DNA from: Acidimicrobiales bacterium
Lineage (GTDB): Bacteria > Actinomycetota > Acidimicrobiia > Acidimicrobiales > SHLQ01
Length of the DNA stretch: 56,113 nucleotides
NCBI GenBank assembly: GCA_020628865.1
Contig: JAHDEJ010000035.1
Coordinates: forward strand, 1 to 56,113
Reading direction: 5' to 3'
Position numbers and translations under genes: made by a program. The notes beneath the pieces are model-generated. The model was not told the origin of the DNA, ran no database searches, and saw only the letters and a list, made by a program, of their open reading frames with translations. Positions within the stretch are counted from its first letter, which is position 1, and every line of letters starts with the position of its first letter. Of this stretch, positions 53,031 through 54,576 are shown one piece after another.

Positions 53031-53675
53031 TCAGCCCGCGACCAAACCGGCCTCGACGGCGAAGGGATCCCAGTGCGGATCGTCGTGCCAGTCGTATTCG
53101 CAGCCCGCCGCCATCTCCTCGGCCTCGTCCCGGCCGAACAGCCGCCCGATCACGGCGAGGCTCATGTCCATGCCGGCAGAAACCCCCGATGAGGTGAAGT
53201 ACTTGCCGTCTTCGACCCACCGAGCTTGCCGGATCCACTCGACCTGCGGGGCCAGCCCGATCGTGGCCAGGAAGTCTCGCTTGTTGGTCGTCGCTCGCCG
53301 GCCATCGAGGATGCCGGCGCCCCCGAGCAGAATGCTGCCGGTGCAGACCGAAAGGACGAGCTCTGCGTCGGCCGCAGCGCGACGCAACCAGTCGAGCGAT
53401 CGCTCCCGTTGCAGTACGTCGATCGCCGAATCGCCACCCGGCACCAACAACAGGTCCGGCATTGGGGCATCGTCCACGTCGGCATCAGGTAGCAACCGTT
53501 GGCCTTGCACACTGGCAACGGCCTCACGCGTCTCGGCCACGATCGCCACCTCCACCCGCCCGGGGAGGGATCCCAGCATCTCGAGCGGACCATAGAGGTC
53601 GAGTGTCTCGAAACCGGGAAAGACGAATGCAGCGAGCGTTCGCGGTGTCGGAATGGGAGCTGATGGTTCGGCCAT
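53031..53675 (-). CDS. DJ-1/PfpI family (isonitrile-hydratase-like) protein
   Basis: A 214-residue DJ-1-superfamily protein. [27 protein letters not shown] opening contains the acidic residue pair of this branch. The nucleophile elbow is [17 protein letters not shown] with Cys at about residue 108, and a [10 protein letters not shown] helix follows. Isonitrile hydratase and the effector domains of AraC-type regulators belong to this group. It starts with the ATG at 53675 and is divergent from the ArsR-MOSC gene over 70 bp holding an inverted repeat, so it is the most obvious regulated partner. Confidence 0.85.
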
Positions 53676-53695
53676 GAAAAACAAGCATTGCAGAC

Positions 53696-53715
53696 AGTTG
53701 CGAAACTATGCAACT
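53696..53715. promoter_or_regulatory. Inverted-repeat operator candidate between DJ-1 and ArsR-MOSC genes
   Basis: AGTTGC (53696-53701) and GCAACT (53710-53715) are perfect reverse complements separated by 8 bases. The gap is markedly AT-richer than its surroundings. The spot fits an ArsR-family repressor controlling both divergent genes. Confidence 0.55.
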
Positions 53716-53745
53716 ATGAAGACGACGCCTCCTGGAGATCACTTC

Positions 53746-54576
53746 ATGCCAACGACCGCCACCGAGAACAGCACATGCCAATTGGGATCTGCCGAGCCCC
53801 ATCTCGATGCGGTGAAGCGTTCGATGACCACCCTCGACGAGGCGACGGCGGTGACCGATCTGTTCAAGCTGCTCGGGGATCCAACCCGGCTTCAGATGCT
53901 CTCGGCACTGGTCGAGGCCGGCGAGCTGAACGTCGGCTCACTCGCTGCCGCCGTCGAAACAACCGAGCAGAAGGTCTCCCAGGGTCTTCGACTTCTTCGC
54001 AGCGCTGGCCTCGTCGCCAATCGGCGCGCAGGCCGCACGATCTACTACCGCGTCACCAGTGACGAAGTCCGCCAACTCCTTGGGCTCTCGCTCGACCACA
54101 CGACGCTGCCCACCGATCGCTCGCCGCACATCGGTTCCATCGAGCGCATTTCGTTCGCACCGAACAGCGGCGACCCACTCGTCGTGGTGGACCAGGTGGC
54201 GGTCGAGATCGGCACCGGCATCGAGGGCAACCGGCCGGGCGAGAACTCCGCCCGCCAGGTCTCGATCCAGTCCCGCCAGGAGCTCGACCTTGCGGAGAAA
54301 CGCTTGGGCCGGCCGATCCACGCCGACCAGACTCGCCGCAACATCACGCTCGACGCCGGGGAACTCCCCCGGGTTCGAGGCCAGCGCCTGCTCCTCGGCA
54401 CCGTCGAGCTCGAGGTCTTCTCGGACGCACCGCCATGCGCCACCATGACTCGGATCATCGGCACGGGCGCCCGACCGGCACTCCGCAAGCTCGGCGGCAT
54501 CCACTGCCGGGTGATTCAGGCCGGCACCATCCACGTCGGTGACGACCTCCACCTCGGGCGAGGCCCGCGCGACTGA
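53746..54576 (+). CDS. ArsR-family winged-helix regulator fused to a MOSC domain
   Basis: A 276-residue single-frame fusion. Residues 30-115 are an ArsR/SmtB winged helix (FKLLGDPTRLQMLSALVEAGELNVGSLAAAV, then KVSQGLRLLRSAGLV). The metal-binding Cys pair of the usual ELCVCDL motif is replaced by ELNVGSL. Residues 127-270 are a MOSC domain: IGSIERI, RRNITLDAGEL (197-207) and PPCATMTRI with Cys231, the conserved MOSC cysteine. MOSC domains handle sulfur or molybdenum-cofactor chemistry; ArsR proteins repress genes. The combination suggests a one-component sensor of a MOSC ligand (inference). The ATG at 53746 has TGGAGA upstream; an ATG at 53716 is possible. Confidence 0.8.
   Translation: MPTTATENSTCQLGSAEPHLDAVKRSMTTLDEATAVTDLFKLLGDPTRLQMLSALVEAGELNVGSLAAAVETTEQKVSQGLRLLRSAGLVANRRAGRTIYYRVTSDEVRQLLGLSLDHTTLPTDRSPHIGSIERISFAPNSGDPLVVVDQVAVEIGTGIEGNRPGENSARQVSIQSRQELDLAEKRLGRPIHADQTRRNITLDAGELPRVRGQRLLLGTVELEVFSDAPPCATMTRIIGTGARPALRKLGGIHCRVIQAGTIHVGDDLHLGRGPRD

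Follow-up and report, generated by a model that had tools for sequence, protein, structure and literature searches.

The fusion gene and its surroundings

The stretch of DNA analysed here (the window, 56,113 nucleotides from an Acidimicrobiales bacterium) encodes, at 53746-54576 on the forward strand, a protein of 276 amino acids in which an ArsR/SmtB winged helix is followed by a complete MOSC domain that has the invariant cysteine, Cys231. Both domains lie in one forward-strand frame, which is free of stop codons from 53653 to 54576. ATG 53746 is the likely start codon, since a Shine-Dalgarno-like GGAG (53734-53737, forward strand) lies 8 bp upstream of it and the nearest relative (L001, in genome G008) has a GTG start behind a GGAGG at the aligned position. 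Upstream of this ATG there is barely any protein-level alignment with that 95%-identical relative. Counted from this start, the protein contains three cysteines only, at residues 11, 231 and 254. A DJ-1/PfpI-family gene (53031-53675, reverse strand; PF01965, E-value 3.9e-22) lies divergently, with a start at ATG 53675 or possibly at TTG 53684, and the start codons of the two genes are 70 bp apart. Between them lies a perfect 6-bp inverted repeat, AGTTGC-N8-GCAACT (53696-53715), a probable operator.

The ArsR half (residues 37-112, 53854-54081, forward strand) places the protein in the ArsR/SmtB superfamily through winged-helix profiles above their cut-offs: NCBIfam HTH_metalloreg (NF033788; E-value 5.8e-25, 86.9 bits, cut-off 55) and Pfam HTH_5 (E-value 5.2e-9, 36.3 bits, cut-off 22). 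The MOSC half matches PF03473 over residues 169-268 (E-value 2.3e-12, 47.4 bits, cut-off 22.7), and homology to stand-alone MOSC proteins begins at about residue 129 (54130-54549, forward strand). Together with this match, Cys231 assigns it to the MOSC family; the residue lies in a PPC motif (54436-54438, forward strand) and is invariant in 17 of 17 aligned MOSC proteins. A structure prediction built from two sequences reached a pLDDT of only 35.7 and was discarded. The sequence-only reading had proposed a genuine one-frame fusion with an intact MOSC cysteine at residue 231, and it holds on both counts: each half exceeds its profile cut-off, the frame is unbroken, the fusion occurs in four assemblies and the numbering agrees with a start at ATG 53746.

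Conservation and a probable single origin

The same fusion is found in three further assemblies of the same family, which brings the total to four fusions in two genera. Identity to the window protein is 95% in G008, 59% in G017 (another genus) and about 52% in G013, where the copy is partial, with the contig end inside the MOSC domain. A comparison of the window copy with the G008 copy gives dN/dS values of 0.035 for the ArsR half and 0.069 for the MOSC half. Both halves are therefore under strong purifying selection, i.e. they are maintained, and the recurrence of the fusion is not due to chance. The source assemblies are drafts, and one could suspect an assembly artefact or a decaying fusion without function. 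Given four assemblies, two genera, a conserved operator (see below) and purifying selection on both halves, this suspicion is scarcely credible.

In phylogenetic trees, the four ArsR halves form one clade (support 100/100), as do the three MOSC halves (96/91), whose sister is a stand-alone MOSC protein (L044) from another family of the order. Since each half forms a single clade, the distribution appears to need no more than one fusion event and then patchy retention or transfer. No further ArsR-MOSC fusion turned up in three overlapping draws of about 395 genomes (from the order, the class and the phylum) or among 72,556 plasmid records (80% coverage). Short peptide patterns run against 84,980 species genomes, a scan that reaches close relatives only, found none beyond L001. 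Independent, distant fusions of this kind may exist elsewhere.

The ArsR half: a metal-sensor lineage that lost its ligands

The nearest stand-alone relatives of the ArsR half share 41-48% identity with it. They read ELCVCD (one reads ELCVHD) at the metal motif, the CxC pair is present in 10 of the 11 examined, and an N-terminal cysteine is found in nearly all. Where the surroundings were read, most of these repressors adjoin CDF genes (L030, L034, L035) or large P-type-ATPase-like genes (L031, L032, L033), exporter genes that were named by sequence recognition, without profile scans. By this comparison, the ArsR half is a descendant of CadC/ZiaR-like ELCVCD repressors that adjoin metal exporters.

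The four fusions read ELNVGS, ELNVGS, ELSVGS and ELNVGA at this motif (ELNVGS at residues 60-65, 53923-53940, forward strand, in the window). Both cysteines of the CxC are gone in all four, as the sequence-only reading had stated for the window protein, and because the loss is common to all four it is no sequencing error. The N-terminal cysteine is kept in all four as part of a CQ pair; in the window this is Cys11 (53776-53778, forward strand), by position the N-terminal cysteine of the alpha3N site. Of that site (N-terminal cysteine plus ELCVCD), only Cys11 is left in the window protein, and the alpha5 motif DXHX10HXXE/H has become S-D-E-x10-H-T-T-L. These motifs are defined for CadC/ZiaR-type and SmtB/CzrA-type sensors in PMC8960804 and, for the CadC/ZiaR type, also in PMC5658604. 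The alpha5 site is broken in G017 as well, and three-quarters of it is kept in G013 (D-x-H-x10-H). With neither site intact, the window protein is to be placed, as far as motifs tell, within ArsR/SmtB but outside its metal-sensing classes.

How far the fusions have moved away from CadC/ZiaR/AztR-type repressors (e.g. TtSmtB of Thermus) can be seen by setting the two side by side. They share the winged-helix family and the position of the N-terminal cysteine, and two fusions use the same operator as their stand-alone relatives within the order. Unlike those repressors, none of the four fusions has either CxC cysteine, each has a MOSC domain attached, the alpha5 motif of the window protein is broken, and no metal exporter was recognised next to any of the four. 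The lost CxC, the broken alpha5 motif and the lack of a recognised exporter weigh against the idea of a residual metal sensor, in which a metal repressor has diverged and acquired a MOSC domain while its alpha5 site or Cys11 still weakly binds zinc or cadmium. Such a sensor would fit the partly kept alpha5 motif of G013 and the unchanged operator of G013 and G017. On balance, we regard it as quite unlikely.

The retained cysteine raises another alternative. ArsR proteins without metal motifs can act as thiol-redox sensors, e.g. RexT, which works through two cysteines of its winged-helix fold (PMC8960804). In the fusion, oxidation, persulfidation or metallation of Cys11, perhaps together with a MOSC cysteine, might relieve repression, with the MOSC domain as the regulated product. 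That Cys11 persists in all four fusions despite the loss of the other ligand cysteines speaks for such a switch. However, the ArsR half of the window protein has one cysteine where RexT uses two, and the N-terminal stretch is the fastest-evolving part of the fusion protein (dN/dS 0.20, window versus G008). A thiol/redox switch of this kind is thus unlikely.

The operator

Two fusions (G013 and G017) have the sequence TAYCTTCACANNTRTGMAG exactly at their start, and it is also present at 6 of the 11 stand-alone repressors examined; as a consensus, TA(C/T)CTTCACA-NN-T(A/G)TG(C/A)AG stands at or near the start codon of those six. The 19-mer of the G013 fusion is identical to that of the stand-alone repressor L007. 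G013, G017, G015 and G003 each have a single exact match to the 19-bp operator in the genome, in each case at these genes; the control search gave 0 or 1 matches even when two mismatches were allowed. In six stand-alone ELCVCD-type repressors (L006, L007, L009, L010, L012 and L013) we noted a common promoter-operator, often TTGACA followed after about 17 bp by TAYCTTCACANNTRTGMAG. The ATG/GTG start of these genes falls within the operator, a hint that metal-efflux regulators of this order have leaderless mRNAs.

The window and G008 carry a different version. The core of the inverted repeat, TTGC-N8-GCAA (53698-53713), recurs in G008 at an identical offset, -48 from the start codon, though most flanking bases differ, and for this reason the repeat noticed between the fusion and DJ-1 genes in the sequence-only reading is not a chance palindrome. 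In both genomes it is placed between conserved hexamers that sequence comparison suggests to be promoter elements: a -35-like TTGCAG (53688-53693, forward strand; TTGCAA in L001) and, 18 bp from it in both, a -10-like AACTAT (53712-53717, forward strand). The site shares a 16-bp frame with the ancestral operator, and the bases between its half-sites are mostly unconserved. We read it as a derived form of the metal repressors' operator. The recognition-helix region is TEQKVSQG in the window and G008 proteins versus GETKVSQA or SETKVSQA in the rest, a suggestive fit to co-evolution of protein and operator.

The exact TTGC-N8-GCAA pattern was found nowhere else in the window genome or in G008; that is, it occurs only at the promoter of the fusion itself. 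Weaker matches did not rise above a control with the pattern reversed, and those one-mismatch sites that were examined fall within predicted coding frames. The inverted repeat is thus probably the fusion's own autoregulatory operator, inherited from metal-sensing ancestors. The narrowness of this predicted autoregulation comes from pattern searches, which are blind to degenerate sites, and from a G008 assembly that is 67% complete. A two-mismatch site, CTTCACA-CC-TGTG, in G013 and G017 was not counted as a second target because it lies in or near coding sequence. It stands at about position 1501 of L102 and L105 (G017 and G013), at the start of one shared, possibly helicase-like gene, and may be coding or a second target.

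Neighbouring genes

The neighbourhood varies from genome to genome. The upstream or adjacent gene is DJ-1 in the window, MttB-like in G008, SelO-like (upstream) in G017 and exonuclease-like in G013, where all names other than DJ-1 come from sequence recognition. None of the other three fusions has DJ-1 as a neighbour, and the truncated ModF-like ATPase at the end of the window has no counterpart at the corresponding place in G008. Both genes lie where the sequence-only reading had put them; as functional clues they were dropped for want of a conserved neighbourhood. The fusion appears to form a single-gene transcription unit wherever it can be read, since those downstream neighbours that are readable lie on the other strand. 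Between the window (53031-53684) and G008 (L029:1995-3665), the divergent gene is replaced (DJ-1 versus MttB-like) while the downstream genes are unchanged, which places the breakpoint next to the operator.

Could the fusion nonetheless be a pure sensor? In such a design, the MOSC domain would only sense a ligand (molybdenum cofactor, a persulfide or an N-hydroxylated compound), and the regulated genes would be others, e.g. the divergent DJ-1. The operator does lie inside the 70-bp gap between the divergent genes, and the lost metal ligands call for a different signal. Against it stand the changing neighbours of the other three fusions, the lack of a second exact operator copy in the genomes searched and the retention of the MOSC active-site residues (see below), and we find it rather doubtful, if conceivable. 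In the window genome only, DJ-1 may be a second target under the shared operator, since in so short a gap its promoter must overlap the operator region.

The MOSC half and molybdenum cofactor supply

R44, R51, TRRN and PC (alignment positions) are common to the 17 aligned MOSC sequences, among them those of the fusions. The window protein reads GNRP in place of the GDRY/GDRH of its relatives, a change through which its catalysis may be altered. The chain ends about 8 residues after the MOSC match, which leaves no C-terminal 3-alpha bundle of the kind found after the MOSC domain in YiiM (PMC5818509 and the portion of PMC10637980 used here) and sets the protein apart from that subfamily. The MOSC cysteine has been proposed as the reactive residue in YiiM (PMC5818509), and it is described as the molybdenum-coordinating residue of mARC in the portion of PMC10637980 used here. 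Searched against solved structures, the single MOSC sequence gave no match, and the 17-sequence profile gave weak matches to mARC/YuaD (best E-value 0.16).

At L044:1468-1950, in another family, the MOSC half of the fusion has an orthologue that stands alone (209 bits versus about 110 for other MOSC proteins; 52% identity); it adjoins an SRPBCC-like gene and has no ArsR attached. With small stand-alone MOSC proteins (MOSC only, like YuaD; functionally YiiM/YcbX/mARC), the fusion shares a complete MOSC domain, TRRN and the invariant PC. It differs from them in carrying a DNA-binding domain, and it has no electron-transfer domain. To judge from these residues, the MOSC half looks like an intact enzyme-like domain rather than a degraded sensor, and it probably binds molybdenum cofactor.

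The cofactor itself should be available in the hosts, since molybdenum hydroxylases occur in all four genomes and three of them (G000, G017 and G008) have moaA, cut by a contig end in G008, as well as moeA. In G013 (90% complete), no moaA above the cut-off and no MoeA_N match were found. Its many molybdenum hydroxylases led us to set aside an absence of the cofactor there, and the lack of the two genes is probably an assembly gap.

A proposed mode of action

We give about an even chance to the proposal that the fusion is a self-contained, autorepressed MOSC protein, with repressor and effector in one chain and a signal that comes from the MOSC pocket. The ArsR half, once a CadC/ZiaR-type repressor that responded to metal, would have lost its metal ligands but would still bind the operator in its own promoter and so repress the fusion gene. 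The MOSC half would be the effector, reducing N-hydroxylated compounds or transferring sulfur as in its YiiM/mARC relatives. With cofactor or substrate bound in the MOSC pocket, or with the pocket's reactive cysteine modified, the ArsR dimer would come off the operator and synthesis of the protein would increase. An autorepressed MOSC protein is favoured over a DJ-1 sensor because DJ-1 and ModF are not conserved, the fusion is a single-gene unit and the operator lies at its own promoter; the MOSC half would then be the effector most consistently under this operator in the readable genomes.

For the signal, our first choice would be the state of the MOSC pocket (molybdenum cofactor, substrate or modified Cys231), with a Cys11 thiol switch second. 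It is possible that ligand sensing has moved to the MOSC half, which the sequence-only reading had considered probable. The MOSC domain could also be a passenger that does not signal to the ArsR half. The bolder proposal, in which the MOSC domain is the signal receiver, senses molybdenum cofactor or substrate in an enzyme pocket and sets its own level, would make the fusion the first MOSC-based one-component regulator, and we put it forward tentatively as a possibility that falls short of an even chance. If the MOSC domain is the input, nature would have provided a read-out for molybdenum cofactor or for the substrates of small stand-alone MOSC proteins, a group in which function has been assigned for few, and the DNA-binding half could be used as a reporter to screen MOSC substrates.

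Comparison with known fusions

In the open-access literature, we found no description of an ArsR-MOSC fusion or of a MOSC domain fused to any transcription-factor domain. The portion of the mARC review PMC10637980 used here lists a 3-alpha domain, ferredoxin, flavin, NifS, MoaB and XdhC as MOSC fusion partners and names no transcription factor. The present protein resembles these in joining MOSC to another domain and differs from them in the nature of its partner. On its domain content, we rate it as a one-component regulator with a partner domain that we did not find described. It would represent a metal sensor that has been re-purposed, with the ligands erased, the operator retained and an enzyme domain added.

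Autoregulatory or 'trigger' enzymes that bind DNA exist, e.g. PutA. The fusion resembles PutA-type enzymes in having repressor and enzyme in one chain, which would steer its own synthesis. In contrast to them, it is built from different domains, its DNA binding is a prediction, and its target is apparently mainly its own gene.
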